Below are positions 40,108-45,739 of a DNA stretch of 64,000 nt, in pieces. Origin of the DNA: Kaistia hirudinis (GTDB lineage: Bacteria > Pseudomonadota > Alphaproteobacteria > Rhizobiales > Kaistiaceae); NCBI RefSeq assembly GCF_014196455.1, contig NZ_JACIDS010000001.1:124001-188000 (forward strand), read 5' to 3'. Position 1 is the stretch's first letter. Every line of letters begins with the position of its first letter. The position numbers and the translations under genes were made by a program. Under the pieces are notes generated by a model that was not told the origin of the DNA, ran no database searches, and worked only from the letters and a program-made list of their open reading frames with translations.

Positions 40108-40548
40108 CTAGTTGCTCGCGGGCCCGAAACGATAGCTGCCGTCGTCTTCGACGATGAGTTCGTAGCTCGCCGGATCGTCGCCGGAAGGGTGGGCGATGGC
40201 GACAAACACGGTCAGGCCGTTCTCGAGATCGGTGGTGAAATCGGAAACGGCGAGCTTCTGGGCCGCGACCTCGGCGATTTCGATGCTTCGTTCGAGGCTC
40301 GGCGTGCCGTCCGCGCCGAGGACGAGCCACTGCACGAAGAGATGCGATGTGCCATCGCCGCTTCGCGACAGGACCACACGGTAGAGCCCCTTCTTGCCAT
40401 CCTTTTCCCAGCTGCCGGGCACGCGGATTTCGCGGATGGAGGGATCGATCGCGGCGACGTTGTCGGCGAGCGGATCGGCGAAGGCAGGGGCGGCGGCGAA
40501 GGCGAGCACGAGGGCGAGAAGGGCCGGCTTGGCGAAGGCGTGGGGCAT
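40108..40548 (-). CDS. Small exported protein of unknown function
   Basis: A 146-residue protein with a signal peptide (MPHAFAKPALLALVLAFAAA, cleavage after AFA near residue 24). The mature part of about 120 residues has alternating strand-like segments (LYRVVLSRSGDGTSHLFVQW, LTVFVAIAHPSGDDPASYEL) and no cysteines, so it is probably a soluble periplasmic beta protein. I do not recognise the family. AGGAG lies 7 bases before the ATG. It lies 88 bases downstream of the esterase-GntR gene on the same strand, with hairpins between. Confidence 0.75.
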   Translation of the reverse strand: MPHAFAKPALLALVLAFAAAPAFADPLADNVAAIDPSIREIRVPGSWEKDGKKGLYRVVLSRSGDGTSHLFVQWLVLGADGTPSLERSIEIAEVAAQKLAVSDFTTDLENGLTVFVAIAHPSGDDPASYELIVEDDGSYRFGPASN

Positions 40549-40636: not shown

Positions 40637-42517
40637 TCAGGCACCGGCAGGCGCGGGCTGCGGTGTTGCTTCCGCGGCGGGGCCGGAATGCGCGACGCAG
40701 CTGATGAGAAGCAGCGTCTCGGAGAGGGCGCCGTCGATCAGATAGGCCATTTCCTGCAACGCGCCCTCGGCATCGCGCGCCACGATCCGCTCGAAAACCT
40801 TGGCGTGGTCGGCGACCGGATCGCCGCCGGGACGGGCCGGGGCCACCGCTTCCTGCAGCGCGAGCGACCATTGCAGCGTCACCTGGATCGCCGGCCACAT
40901 CGCGGCCAGCACATCATTCTCGCTGCAGGCGATCATCCTCTCGTGGAAGTCGAGCACCGCCTGCTGCCAGCCGGCATCCGCCGGTCCGCGCGTTGCCATG
41001 TTCGACATCGCCTCGGCGAGACCGGCCAGTCCGGCGTCGTCGCGCCGCCGGGCCGCGAGTGCCGCGGCGCTGGGCTCGACGACCTTGCGCACCTCGAACA
41101 GGCTGCGGACAAAGGCGGGCGTACAATTGGATTCGAGGTGCCAGGCGAGCACGTCGGGATCCAGAAGCCGCCAGCTCGAGCGCTCATTGATGCGCGTGCC
41201 GACCTTGGGCAGCGAATTGACGAGGCCCTTCGCGGCCAGCGTCCGGACCGCCTCGCGATAGGCGCCGCGCGAGACGCCGAGGGCTGTGCTGGCCGCGTCC
41301 TCGGTCGGCAGGATCGATCCCGGCGGATAGGTGCCGCCGATGATCTCAGTTGCCAGCCGATGGGTGACGGCGCCGTGCGAGCGCGAGCGGCTGGTCAGGA
41401 ACGGGCTGCGGATCGGTGCGATCCGCACGGTGCCGGCATCAGGCAGCCGGTCGTCGCCCATCATGACCGTCGCGGAGAGCCGTCCGGACGGCTCGCCCTG
41501 CAGCGCGCGGACGAGGCTCGCCGGGGCGGCGGGATGGAGATCGCCGAGCGATCGGCGCCGCTCGTCGACATAGTGCACGATCGACCCGGCGCTGGTGGTC
41601 ACGCTGTCGACGATGCCGGCGAAGTGCAGCGCGCCATGCGTCATGCCGGACCAGAGCGAGAGCGCGACATCGACGCCGCAATGGGCGAGGCCGCTATAGA
41701 AGGCGAGCGTGTCGTCGAGCAGCAGGTCGCACTCGGCGCCGATGCAGAGCGTCGGCGGAAAGAAGCTGAGATCCGCGCCGACCGGTGTTAGCTTCTGTCG
41801 CTCAGTGGGCGGGACATGCGGCGCATAGAGGTTCCAGAACCACCGCATCTGCGTTTCGCCGAGCCCGAACCTCCCGTCGCCGTAGAGCTTGTGCGAGGAG
41901 AGGTTCATCTGCGGCGAATAGGCGCCGTAGATCGAGATGAAGCCGGCAAGACCGGCCGCGATCTCCGGGCCGGCGGAGAGGAGCGCCATGGCCATGACAT
42001 TGGCGCCGGCCGAGTCTCCGGCGAGGAAGATCGTGCGGCCATCGCCCTGATGCTCGCGGACCACCGTGCTGACCACCGCGGCGGTCTGCTGGATCGCCGC
42101 CGGATAGGGATGCTCGGGCGCCAGCGCATAGTCGACCGAGATCACCTGGCTTCCCGTCGCGGCGGCCAGCCAGCGACAGATATGGTCATGCGTATCGACA
42201 CTCCCGATCACCCAGCCACCGCCATGGGCGAACACCAGGACGGAGCGATAGGCGCGCGGGGTATAGACGCGGGTCCGCACCGGTCCGCGCTCGGCAGCGA
42301 AGACCTGCTGCGACACGGACATCGGATGCGTCCGTGCGTCCAGCGCGACCAGGCGGGCGAACTCGTCGAACCAGATCCGCGAGGCTTCGATGTCGAAGAC
42401 GCCCTCGGGGACCAGATGCTGTTGCATCGACTGGATCTGTTCGAGCTTCGCCGCCAGGTCACGCGCGACTGCGCCCGAAGTCTGTCCGCGCGAGCGGCTA
42501 TCGAGCAGGAGCGCCAT
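40637..42517 (-). CDS. Alpha/beta-hydrolase (HSL-type esterase) fused to a GntR/FadR-type regulator
   Basis: A single 626-residue frame with two unrelated halves. Residues 1 to about 320 are an HSL-family esterase: oxyanion HGGG at 98-101, nucleophile S169 in AGDSAGAN, acid in AECDLLLDD (264-269) and H294 in GMTHG. Residues about 375-445 are a GntR winged helix (AVTHRLATEIIGGTYPPGSI, LPTEDAASTALGVSRGAYRE), and about 455-600 an FCD ligand-binding domain (LFEVRKVVEPSAAALAARR, VLDFHERM, ADHAKVFERI). The linker, about 320-375, is loosely structured. It is the last gene of a sugar ABC operon, 28 bases after the permease. Likely a regulator joined to an enzyme acting on the same imported ligand; that is inference. 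Confidence 0.88.
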   Translation of the reverse strand: MALLLDSRSRGQTSGAVARDLAAKLEQIQSMQQHLVPEGVFDIEASRIWFDEFARLVALDARTHPMSVSQQVFAAERGPVRTRVYTPRAYRSVLVFAHGGGWVIGSVDTHDHICRWLAAATGSQVISVDYALAPEHPYPAAIQQTAAVVSTVVREHQGDGRTIFLAGDSAGANVMAMALLSAGPEIAAGLAGFISIYGAYSPQMNLSSHKLYGDGRFGLGETQMRWFWNLYAPHVPPTERQKLTPVGADLSFFPPTLCIGAECDLLLDDTLAFYSGLAHCGVDVALSLWSGMTHGALHFAGIVDSVTTSAGSIVHYVDERRRSLGDLHPAAPASLVRALQGEPSGRLSATVMMGDDRLPDAGTVRIAPIRSPFLTSRSRSHGAVTHRLATEIIGGTYPPGSILPTEDAASTALGVSRGAYREAVRTLAAKGLVNSLPKVGTRINERSSWRLLDPDVLAWHLESNCTPAFVRSLFEVRKVVEPSAAALAARRRDDAGLAGLAEAMSNMATRGPADAGWQQAVLDFHERMIACSENDVLAAMWPAIQVTLQWSLALQEAVAPARPGGDPVADHAKVFERIVARDAEGALQEMAYLIDGALSETLLLISCVAHSGPAAEATPQPAPAGA

Positions 42518-42545: not shown

Positions 42546-43568
42546 TCAGCGACGGGCCTTGAAGCGCCGGCTGCGCTGAGCCTGGTCCCAGGCGACGGCC
42601 GCGACGAGGATCACACCGATGAAGATGTTCTGATAGAGCGGATTGACGTTGACCACGGCGAGGCCGTTGTTCAGCACGGCGAAGAGCAGGACGCCGAGCG
42701 CGGTGCCGCCGATCGTTCCCGTGCCGCCGAACAGGCTCGTGCCGCCGATGATGATCGCGGTGAGGACCTGGAAGGTGAGGGAGGAACTGCCCGCCGATGG
42801 CGAGGCGGTGCTGGTCCGAGCCATGAAGAAGATGCCGGCCAGCGCGGTGACGCCGCCCGAAAGCGCATAGAGCTTCAGATCGAGCGCATTGACGCGCACG
42901 CCATTGGCGAGCGCCGCCGCCCGGTTTCCGCCGGTGATGCGCGTCTCGTAGCCGAAGCGCGTATGCTCCAGCAGGATGTGGAACACGATGCCGAAGATGA
43001 CCGCGTAGCAGACGAGATAGGGCACGCCGAAGAGCTTGCCCTGGCCGATGGCGTTGAAGGCGTCGGGAAACCCGAAAAGGTTGGTACCGCCGGTATAGAC
43101 CGTGATCGCGCCGCCGGCGGCGAAGAACATGCCGAGCGTGGCGATGAGGGGCGGGACCTTCAGATAGACGATGACGGCGCCATTGATCGCGCCGAGCACC
43201 GCACCGGCCGCGACCGCGAGGATGATCGCGAGCGGCCATGGCACGCCGGCCAGGATCAGCGCGCCGGCGACGATGCCGCCGAAGGCATAGAGGGCGCCGA
43301 TCGAGAAATCGAGGCCACCGCCGACGAGGATCATCGTCGAGGTGCAGGCGACGATGAAATAGAGCGCGCCCGAACGCAGGATCTCGATGATGTTTCCCTG
43401 GCTCAGGAAGACAGGATTCAGCGTCTGGAACACGATCGCGACGATGATCACGACGAGGGCGAGGCCAGCCTGCTGTCCCGCGGAGAGGATCGCGCGCCAC
43501 TTGCCGCCATCCTCGTCGCGCGCCGCACGCGCGGCCGGCGTCCCGGCGAGCTTGTTCTCAATGGTCAT
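42546..43568 (-). CDS. Sugar ABC transporter permease (RbsC/FrcC family)
   Basis: A 340-residue inner-membrane permease with about eight to ten spans. Family marks are ILVGGGLDFSIGALYAFGG near residues 80-98, LGAINGAVIVYLKVPPLIAT and GGTSLFGGTGTIGGTALGVL near the C-terminus. It forms the channel for the binding protein and ATPase encoded just upstream, and its start overlaps the end of the ATPase gene by 11 bases. The substrate class is a monosaccharide or derivative. Confidence 0.93.
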   Translation of the reverse strand: MTIENKLAGTPAARAARDEDGGKWRAILSAGQQAGLALVVIIVAIVFQTLNPVFLSQGNIIEILRSGALYFIVACTSTMILVGGGLDFSIGALYAFGGIVAGALILAGVPWPLAIILAVAAGAVLGAINGAVIVYLKVPPLIATLGMFFAAGGAITVYTGGTNLFGFPDAFNAIGQGKLFGVPYLVCYAVIFGIVFHILLEHTRFGYETRITGGNRAAALANGVRVNALDLKLYALSGGVTALAGIFFMARTSTASPSAGSSSLTFQVLTAIIIGGTSLFGGTGTIGGTALGVLLFAVLNNGLAVVNVNPLYQNIFIGVILVAAVAWDQAQRSRRFKARR

Positions 43569-44331
43569 CGCGCCGCACTCCGGTGATCAGGCTGATGATG
43601 TCGCTCTTGTTCGTCTCGGAGACCTTGCGCACGCCCGCGGTCTGGCCGAGCCGCATGACATGGATGCGGTCGGCGACCTCGAAGACGAACCCCATGTCGT
43701 GGCTGACGCAGATGACGGCGGCGCCGCGGCTCCGGAGCGAGCGGATAAGATCGGCGGCATGGGCGGTCTCGCGCACGCCGAGCGCGGCCGTAGGCTCGTC
43801 GAGCAGCACGACCGAGGCGCCGGCCCGCATGCCGCGGGCGATGGCAACGATCTGGCGCTGGCCGCCGGAGAGCATGCCGATCGGCGTGCGGACGGATTTC
43901 ACGGTGACGCCGAGATCATCGAGCAGGTGCCGGGTGTCGGCCTCCATCCGGCGCTTGTCGACGAAGGGGCCGCGCGTCGGCAACTGGCCGATGAACATGT
44001 TGGTCGCGACGTCCAGGCATTCGACGAGCGCGAGATCCTGGAAGACCGTGGCGATGCCGGCATTGCGAGCATCGGCGGGGCTGCGCAGATGGCGCTCGAC
44101 GCCATCCACCGAGATCGTTCCCGAGTCGGGATGATGCACGCCGCTGATCACCTTGATCAGGGTCGATTTGCCGGCGCCGTTGTCGCCGACGATGGCGAGG
44201 ATTTCGCCGGGCTCGACCGACAGGTTCACGTGCGAGAGCGCGTGAACCTGTCCGAAGGACTTCGAGATGTCCTTCAAGTGAAGCCCGGCGGTCCTCGCAT
44301 GAGCCGGAAGCGCATGCGAGGCGTTGGTCAC
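43558..44331 (-). CDS. Sugar ABC transporter ATPase, single-domain FrcA type
   Basis: A 257-residue ATPase with one nucleotide-binding domain: Walker A GDNGAGKST, Q-loop ATVFQDLAL, signature LSGGQRQIV, Walker B VVLLDEPTAAL and switch His CVSHDMG. CUT2 transporters usually have a double-domain RbsA of about 500 residues; the half-size form matches Sinorhizobium FrcA of the fructose system. GTG 44331 overlaps the stop of the binding-protein gene (GTGA). Confidence 0.93.
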   Translation of the reverse strand: MTNASHALPAHARTAGLHLKDISKSFGQVHALSHVNLSVEPGEILAIVGDNGAGKSTLIKVISGVHHPDSGTISVDGVERHLRSPADARNAGIATVFQDLALVECLDVATNMFIGQLPTRGPFVDKRRMEADTRHLLDDLGVTVKSVRTPIGMLSGGQRQIVAIARGMRAGASVVLLDEPTAALGVRETAHAADLIRSLRSRGAAVICVSHDMGFVFEVADRIHVMRLGQTAGVRKVSETNKSDIISLITGVRRDDH

Positions 44332-45263
44332 TTGGCGAGTTCCTGGTCGAGCGTCTCGGCGGTGATGAAGGTGATGCCGGTGTCGACGCTCTTCGGCACG
44401 GCTTCGCCCTTCGACAGCGCGATGATCTTCTCGACGGCGCCCGACGCCATGCCGCAGAAATTCTGCTTGCTGGTGCCATAGAGCGTGCCGTCCTTGAGGC
44501 CGGCCACGACTTCCGGCGTCACGTCGTTGACGACGCCGACGACCTTGCCGGTCAGGCCCTTCTCCTTGATGGCGGTGGTGATGCCGGCGACTGCATTGCC
44601 TTCCCAAGAGAGCACGACATTGACGTCCGGATGCGCCGTGAGCGTCCGGCTGACGACGTCGGTCGTCTGCGTCGGATCGCCGGCATCATAGGCTTCGGCC
44701 ACCAGCGTGACATTGCCGAGCGCGGGCAGCGCCTTGACGAAGCCGTCGACGAAGACGCGGTGCACGCCGCTCGGCTGGTTGCCGAGGATAATGACGTTCT
44801 GCGGGCCGCCGCGCTTGGCGATGTTCTCGGCGACGACCTTGCCCTGGTTGGCGTAGTCCGTGCCCAGCACGATGTCCTGGACGCTGGTCGTGTCGCCGGT
44901 ATTCATGGTCGCCACATACATGCCGGCAGCCTTCGCTTCCTTCATCAGCGGCTCATACATGGCCGAGCTGAAGGGAACGAGGATCAGGCCGTCCGCGCCG
45001 GTGGCGATATATTGCGAGATGCGGTCGAGCACGAACTGCTCGTCCATCTGCAGGCCGGTCGGGCCGGACGTCACGCCCTCGATGCCCGCCTTCTTCACGG
45101 CTTCGTTGAAGCACTTGTCCGCTTCCTGGAACACCGGATAGGCCGGCAGCGGGTTGGCGAAGGCGATCTTCTTGACCGGACGCAGGTCGTCGGCTGAGGC
45201 GGCACCGGCCGACAGCGCAAGCATCATCGCGGCGACAGACGTCGCCAATACGCGCAGTTTCAT
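44328..45263 (-). CDS. Sugar-binding periplasmic protein of an ABC importer
   Basis: A 311-residue type I periplasmic binding protein: signal peptide about residues 1-24 (MMLALSAGAASA), then the Peripla_BP_4 fold with ISQYIATGADGLILVPFSSA, GTDYANQGKVVAENIAKRGG and VVGVVNDVTPEVVAGLKDG. It delivers a sugar to the permease/ATPase. First gene of the operon that ends with the esterase-GntR fusion; GAGGAAAA precedes its ATG. Confidence 0.93.
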   Translation of the reverse strand: MKLRVLATSVAAMMLALSAGAASADDLRPVKKIAFANPLPAYPVFQEADKCFNEAVKKAGIEGVTSGPTGLQMDEQFVLDRISQYIATGADGLILVPFSSAMYEPLMKEAKAAGMYVATMNTGDTTSVQDIVLGTDYANQGKVVAENIAKRGGPQNVIILGNQPSGVHRVFVDGFVKALPALGNVTLVAEAYDAGDPTQTTDVVSRTLTAHPDVNVVLSWEGNAVAGITTAIKEKGLTGKVVGVVNDVTPEVVAGLKDGTLYGTSKQNFCGMASGAVEKIIALSKGEAVPKSVDTGITFITAETLDQELAK

Positions 45264-45739
45264 GATTTTCCTCCCGTCGGCGATCTCCTCCCGCCGAACG
45301 GATCGAATTATCGAGGGGAATCGAAACGCGTCAATGCGGTGACCCCATCTACTCCAACCATAGGCCGCAAAAATTGCTAATCGGATGGCCCATCGCACTG
45401 AAATGGGCCGGAAATGACCTGTATTGTCGGAGTATTGGTTCACCAGCTTGCTGCCGGGAGGCGCAAAGCGAGCCGGTCCCGCACCGGCATAAAGCCTTCC
45501 GGGCGGATCGACGGGCGCGTCTCGGACAGCGCTGAACGCGACCGGTCGCCATCGGCCGGCGTGTGGAAGCGGGGGCGTGGAGATGGAGCGCGAATAGGGC
45601 TTGCCCGGCCGTTGTGGCAGGACCGCCGAGCCGACGCAGCAGCGTAAGCCGCTGCCGGTTCCCCGCCGAGGGGCAGCGCAAAACGCTGCCCTTCACCTGA
45701 GGGCGGAAGAATGAAGACCGGGCGGCGCGGCGCTTGGCC
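45264..45739. other. Non-coding region upstream of the sugar ABC operon and downstream of parE
   Basis: 476 bases with no credible gene. The part nearest 45263-45400 is AT-richer and should hold the operon promoter. TGGT-TC-ACCA (45436-45445) is a possible GntR half-site pair. GGGCAGCG-CAAAA-CGCTGCCC (45671-45691) is a perfect 8-bp hairpin 50 bases past the parE stop, without a T-tract on either side. Confidence 0.6.

Follow-up and report, generated by a model that had tools for sequence, protein, structure and literature searches.

The window analysed here (64,000 nucleotides of the Kaistia hirudinis contig NZ_JACIDS010000001.1, forward-strand positions 124,001 to 188,000) contains one open reading frame in which an esterase is followed by a transcription factor of the GntR family. 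The locus raises the question whether such a composite protein is genuine, and how catalysis and DNA binding might work together on one chain.

The fusion gene and its relatives

Translation of the minus strand from 40637 to 42517 confirmed the uninterrupted 626-codon frame described in the initial annotation. The complete esterase and the complete GntR winged helix-turn-helix (wHTH) with FCD domain, which had been read from the sequence by a model, were all recovered by Pfam above the curated cut-offs: Abhydrolase_3 with an E-value of 3.7e-50 (171 bits, cut-off 25), GntR with 7.6e-13 (48.4 bits, cut-off 27) and FCD with 1e-19 (71.6 bits, cut-off 24.3). The HGGG motif, Ser169 within GDSAG and His294 were found where they had been placed, and the catalytic acid, previously confined to residues 264-269, could be narrowed to Asp264. 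Based on Pfam and motifs, the esterase domain is classified as HSL/family IV type (Abhydrolase_3), and the regulator half is assigned by Pfam to the FadR/FCD subfamily of GntR proteins. The gene is composed as follows:

40637..42517, minus strand: esterase-GntR-FCD fusion gene, 626 aa, stop-free frame
41630..42238, minus strand: Abhydrolase_3 esterase domain, residues 94-296 (HGGG 98-101, Ser169, Asp264, His294)
41405..41569, minus strand: linker, residues 317-371
41189..41371, minus strand: GntR winged helix-turn-helix, residues 383-443
40733..41101, minus strand: FCD domain, residues 473-595 (Val521 replaces the metal Asp; His525 and His571 kept)

A search for end-to-end two-domain proteins in related genomes, the check proposed with the first description, was successful. 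Co-linear, single-frame fusions were found in four other genomes: G004 of the same genus (90% identical to that of the window), G026 of the same family (58%), Devosia equisanguinis (NZ_UZWD01000009.1, 50%) and G467 (47%), the last of which turned up when the D. equisanguinis family was searched. The window-type fusion was present in 3 of the 28 genomes of the window's family (window counted), in 2 of 136 genomes of the D. equisanguinis family and in 2 of 397 genomes sampled from the order, both belonging to the window's genus. The class sample (385 genomes) and the phylum sample (398 genomes) held no window-type fusion beyond the window's own copy. At most three candidates per genome were scored in the order, class and phylum samples, and the scan of genome contigs relied on six exact peptides, which copies like that of G467 would escape; rare or distant fusions of this type may therefore be missed. 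The viral contigs scanned contained no relative, no plasmid matched the window fusion at 1e-50, and at 1e-20 none of 299 plasmid records covered 80% of it.

Alignment of the five full-length fusions showed a complete catalytic triad in every one, the oxyanion motif HGGG in four (HGGA in D. equisanguinis) and an identical MALL start, preceded by GGAG in the window and G004. Invariant columns made up 104 of 250 in the esterase, 25 of 76 in the wHTH, 35 of 130 in the FCD domain and none of 55 in the linker. Between the window and G004, dN/dS was 0.086 for the whole gene, 0.081 for the esterase, 0.052 for the wHTH, 0.051 for the FCD domain and 0.092 for the linker, and stayed at 0.02-0.10 in all parts but the C-terminal tail (0.375). 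Both domains and the linker are thus under purifying selection between these two genomes, and the linker, judged by its value, also evolves as coding sequence. The esterase-GntR fusion is a real and conserved class.

Importer operon and predicted operator

The gene order around the fusion is shared by the window, G004 and D. equisanguinis, where genes for a Peripla_BP_4 binding protein (SBP), a single-domain ATPase and a permease come first and the fusion fourth, the permease being scanned with Pfam in the window only. The upstream genes in the window are:

42546..43568, minus strand: permease of a sugar-type ABC importer (BPD_transp_2, Pfam)
43558..44331, minus strand: ABC ATPase with a single domain, overlapping the stop of the SBP gene; 257 aa on the assumption of the same start as in G004
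44328..45263, minus strand: periplasmic binding protein (Peripla_BP_4), ATG at 45263

Three of the five fusions close this same operon, and the other two are divergent from an importer. The importer genes divergent from the G026 fusion encode a Peripla_BP_4 protein, a short ATPase and a permease. The G467 fusion diverges from a different importer and is adjoined by an FMN_dh gene. Binding proteins at the fusion loci are accordingly of the Peripla_BP_4 type in four and SBP_bac_8 in G467. At an E-value of 1e-40, 3 of the 61 near genomes had a match to the SBP of the window, namely its own, G004 (98%) and G007 (32%), and G026 carries the fusion without an orthologue of this SBP. Because of these differences one common substrate is not assured. 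A rhizopine importer was rejected for the window SBP (54.6 bits against a model cut-off of 420).

Downstream of the fusion, a short secreted-looking protein is encoded at 40108-40548 (minus strand), and by eye G004 has a similar gene in the same position. For the longer 178-aa frame found there, neither Pfam nor NCBIfam gave a match at 0.001.

Three elements were located upstream of the SBP gene:

45422..45434, minus strand: predicted operator TACTCCGACAATA, 158 nt ahead of the SBP start
45349..45361, plus strand: weaker candidate site CTACTCCAACCAT, rank 5 in the PWM scan
45307..45334, minus strand: promoter-like TTGACG-16-GATAAT, both hexamers identical in G004

The predicted operator is conserved in G004 and is identical at 11 of 13 positions to sites beside the three nearest stand-alone GntR regulators (G017, G015 and G004), which are the top three by E-value and 45-47% identical to the regulator of the window. 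All three have TACTCATACAATA in their divergent intergenic regions. Each is neighboured by a dehydratase-like gene, which Pfam identifies as ILVD_EDD in G017 and G015, and by an FMN_dh gene; CUT1-like importer genes, as read from the translations, lie near them.

The pattern TACTCNNACAATA, which is partly fitted since its NN positions were set where the window and stand-alone sites differ, had one match in the window and none in 100 shuffles, and one exact match in the 5.26-Mb genome (control 0). Across 74 sequences (521 kb, several overlapping) it occurred only in the window, in the G004 operon and at the three stand-alone regulators. A PWM trained without the window and G004 operon sites gave the highest score among 127,976 to the window site (12.3 versus 10.89 for the next), its training sites coming partly from a Gibbs run that took in the window. 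De novo Gibbs sampling of four fusion loci picked the same site with a score of 42.26, narrowly above all 12 Markov shuffles (best 41.68). The exact TACTCNNACAATA pattern was absent from the fusion loci of D. equisanguinis, G026 and G467, which hold looser variants only (TTAGTCCAACTAA, TAACTCTGACAAA, TTTGTCAGACAAG), and from G040, the fourth-nearest regulator. A longer, looser operator pattern with three mismatches was found twice against 1.13 expected, which is not above chance. According to PMC4494728, GT and AC are usually 3 nt apart in sites of the FadR subfamily. The TACTCCGACAATA site fits TNGTNNNACNA at five of six fixed positions and is equalled by three other sites in the region, so that this consensus alone singles out nothing.

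The earlier proposal that the region upstream of 45263 is a target of the fusion regulator is supported by the candidate operator located there, and this region is a probable target. For a simple repressor, the position of the main site well upstream of the promoter-like element is unusual. The weaker candidate is situated just upstream of the -35-like hexamer and overlaps a block conserved in G004 (GAGTAGATGGG, minus strand). In G004, which has a stand-alone relative besides the fusion, a TACTCNNACAATA match adjoins each of the two (L047 5482-5494 and L044 4911-4923), and cross-talk between them is therefore possible.

The explanation that we favour, by a modest degree of confidence, is a one-component, self-regulated importer switch whose esterase processes the imported compound. 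The fusion would be a one-component DNA-binding esterase, the GntR winged helix of which, dimerised by FCD, would bind TACTC-NN-ACAATA upstream of the SBP-ATPase-permease-fusion operon, and the bound protein would control the importer and its own gene. In the cytoplasm, the esterase domain would hydrolyse the imported, presumably sugar-like, compound in its ester or lactone form, and the DNA-binding state would depend on whether the domain is occupied or on its product. The conserved fusion and operon, the intact triad, the recurrent operator-like site and the loss of the FCD metal aspartate are seen in the sequence; that the protein is catalytically active, dimerises, binds DNA and regulates its own gene is inferred, as are the nature of the substrate and the coupling of the two halves.

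Reversed fusions and the seat of sensing

Proteins with the same two functions in opposite order were also encountered. G018 and G027 encode proteins of 565 and 566 aa with GntR-FCD first and Abhydrolase_3 last; they came from seven stretches around long-frame search matches, and the five long-frame esterase matches inspected (L050-L054) comprised two reversed fusions and three ordinary proteins. A third reversed fusion (67%) is present in G250, from another family, as one frame of 598 codons with both domains detected by Pfam. The reverse-order GntR-FCD-esterase fusions are located at:

L050, 961-2658
L051, 1129-2829
L063, 1498-3291, minus strand

Reversed fusions occur in 2 of the 28 genomes of the window's family, and in G018 a binding-protein gene directly follows. 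Seventy-five plasmid records match the reversed type, 28 of them over at least 80%; among the plasmid matches listed, 11 of 20 are annotated as a GntR gene adjoining an alpha/beta hydrolase gene, and the other nine are without usable annotation. In S. meliloti, Sinorhizobium sp. and R. leguminosarum the regulator and hydrolase genes share 4 nt, and downstream of them lie importer genes together with sugar isomerase-like and Gfo/Idh genes, the latter two being called by Pfam in S. meliloti. In the order sample, with at most three candidates per genome scored, 35 of 397 genomes had reversed-type matches at 1e-50, which were fused in two, adjacent but separate in 19 and neither in 14; the regulator came first in all 19 adjacent pairs. 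The reverse-order fusions and the adjacent pairs, followed by importer genes in the three regions named, link the esterase and regulator functions, and their joining in opposite orders suggests that the esterase and gene-switch jobs belong together.

Phylogenetic trees were constructed for both halves; G250 was left out and both trees carried long-branch warnings. The five window-type regulators grouped together (100/99) and were joined with the three stand-alone GntRs at 91/94. The reverse-type regulators grouped with the rhizobial pair (100/100), apart from the window type, to which they are 28% identical. G018 and G027 did not group with each other in the regulator tree and did so weakly (82/63) in the esterase tree. 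Domain order and phylogeny favour at least two joinings, and the fusion of esterase and regulator probably arose at least twice, independently.

Two further proteins, L055 1629-2999 (plus strand, G018, 456 aa) and L056 1677-3083 (minus strand, G022, 468 aa), each contain two GntR and two FCD stretches as covalent double regulators, and by eye both adjoin SDR and sugar-kinase-like genes.

The closest solved structure to the regulator half by sequence is the D-galactonate repressor DgoR (7c7e, E-value 4.1e-23). According to PMC7674646, Asp146, His150 and His195 of DgoR surround a metal in the proposed D-galactonate pocket. The Asp146 position is Val521 in the window fusion (codon 40955-40957), and a visual alignment pairs His525 and His571 with His150 and His195. 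The five window-type fusions have V, V, V, V and A at the Asp position. The aspartate is kept in all 22 other aligned regulators (17 stand-alone proteins, two reversed fusions and three pair genes, some of them near-identical and not all independent), including the five reversed or paired regulators compared, with G250 outside the comparison. D. equisanguinis has Tyr in place of the second metal histidine, and in G026 Leu replaces Arg477, the residue that lines up with DgoR Arg102 by eye. A metal-dependent, DgoR-like FCD class was rejected for the fusion, as the Asp/His/His triad is without Asp in all five. One ancestral change could account for the loss in all of them. Either the FCD domain senses a different, metal-independent ligand, or sensing has moved to the esterase; the loss shifts weight towards the esterase domain as part of the sensor.

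A strong form of the second option, which we put forward tentatively, is that the intact esterase took over sensing from FCD, and that substrate binding or the acyl-enzyme would switch the GntR DNA-binding dimer directly. If true, this would be a bacterial hydrolase-receptor transcription factor which destroys its own signal and resets itself.

Mere co-production is the rival that survives best, and is nevertheless rather doubtful: the domains would be joined for equal dosage, FCD would sense as usual and the esterase would be a separate catabolic enzyme, with no allosteric coupling. The long linker without a conserved column agrees with this, as do the rhizobia, in which the related pair is encoded by neighbouring genes (with a 4-nt overlap in three annotated regions), and the purifying selection on the whole FCD domain, which may still bind a ligand when metal-free. 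The occurrence of fusions in both orders speaks against it, and so does the metal aspartate, the loss of which in the window-type clade alone indicates that usual FCD sensing is altered there.

Inhibition by a trigger enzyme, in which the fused esterase would hold or block the regulator until substrate comes, is improbable. The analogy is E. coli Aes, an enzyme with acetyl esterase activity that, according to PMC10427625, interacts directly with MalT and thereby inhibits it, an effect that inducer impedes; an esterase can therefore act on a sugar regulator in trans. The Aes model matches the fused esterase with an E-value of 1.4e-41, below the model's cut-off. Set against this, MalT is not a GntR protein, and the structure model of the fusion built from five sequences (mean pLDDT 50.5, regulator mostly below 50) is too poor for a contact surface.

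It is very unlikely that two proteins are made, the regulator being translated from an internal start near Met352/Met353, as the initial annotation had considered. The linker of the window does have two in-frame Met codons, and three of four relatives have at least one. These vary in number and place: G004 has one (Met352), G026 none, D. equisanguinis three, mostly elsewhere, and G467 one, elsewhere. By eye, no Shine-Dalgarno-like sequence directly precedes codon 352 in the window. An internal start was rejected as Met352-Met353 is not kept as a pair among the five fusions.

An assembly or sequencing artefact joining separate genes, likewise raised at the outset, or a fused pseudogene, can practically be dismissed, since the same joined frame recurs in five genomes and dN/dS between the window and G004 is 0.086.

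Comparison with known systems

Beyond the initial annotation, the analysis adds a second fusion of reverse order, the two-gene form in rhizobia and the loss of the FCD metal aspartate. Among the open-licence PMC titles and abstract starts listed as matches, no description of an esterase-GntR fusion was found. The survey PMC5882156 counts 76 companion domains for GntR, and the words hydrolase and esterase do not occur in its main text. Among the NCBIfam matches listed, none of 22 models reaches its cut-off for the fusion.

The alpha/beta hydrolase fold is used as a receptor in the plant hormone receptors GID1 and D14, which are not DNA-binding, and GID1 is without a working triad.

To our knowledge, MocR is the known GntR-enzyme fusion. 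The MocR/GabR subfamily joins a GntR wHTH to an aminotransferase-fold domain, as described in PMC6917764. It resembles the window protein in carrying a GntR wHTH and an enzyme-fold domain on one chain, but the enzyme of the window is an alpha/beta hydrolase, is N-terminal and is accompanied by a full FCD domain. Membership in MocR was rejected, as Pfam detected no aminotransferase domain and the weak PdxR and YczR matches cover only the wHTH end of those models. DgoR, an E. coli GntR/FadR protein with FCD, has 229 residues and is without an esterase.

Aes and MalT offer a likeness in that an esterase of the same broad family acts with the transcription factor of a sugar regulon. Aes, however, acts in trans and on a STAND activator, whereas the arrangement in the window is covalent and involves a GntR regulator. 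Orthology to Aes was rejected (PRK10162.1, 142.4 bits against a cut-off of 389).

The rhizobial GntR/hydrolase pair and its fused form (G018, G027, G250) carry the same two functions, tied to import, but in opposite order and from a different GntR branch. Together they suggest a little-noticed esterase link to regulators of sugar-type importers. In a few alphaproteobacteria, an esterase and a DNA-binding switch thus form one protein beside a nutrient importer, which it probably controls. With one operon, one predicted operator and one active-site serine, the fusion would make a compact test case for whether catalysis can be coupled directly to transcription.
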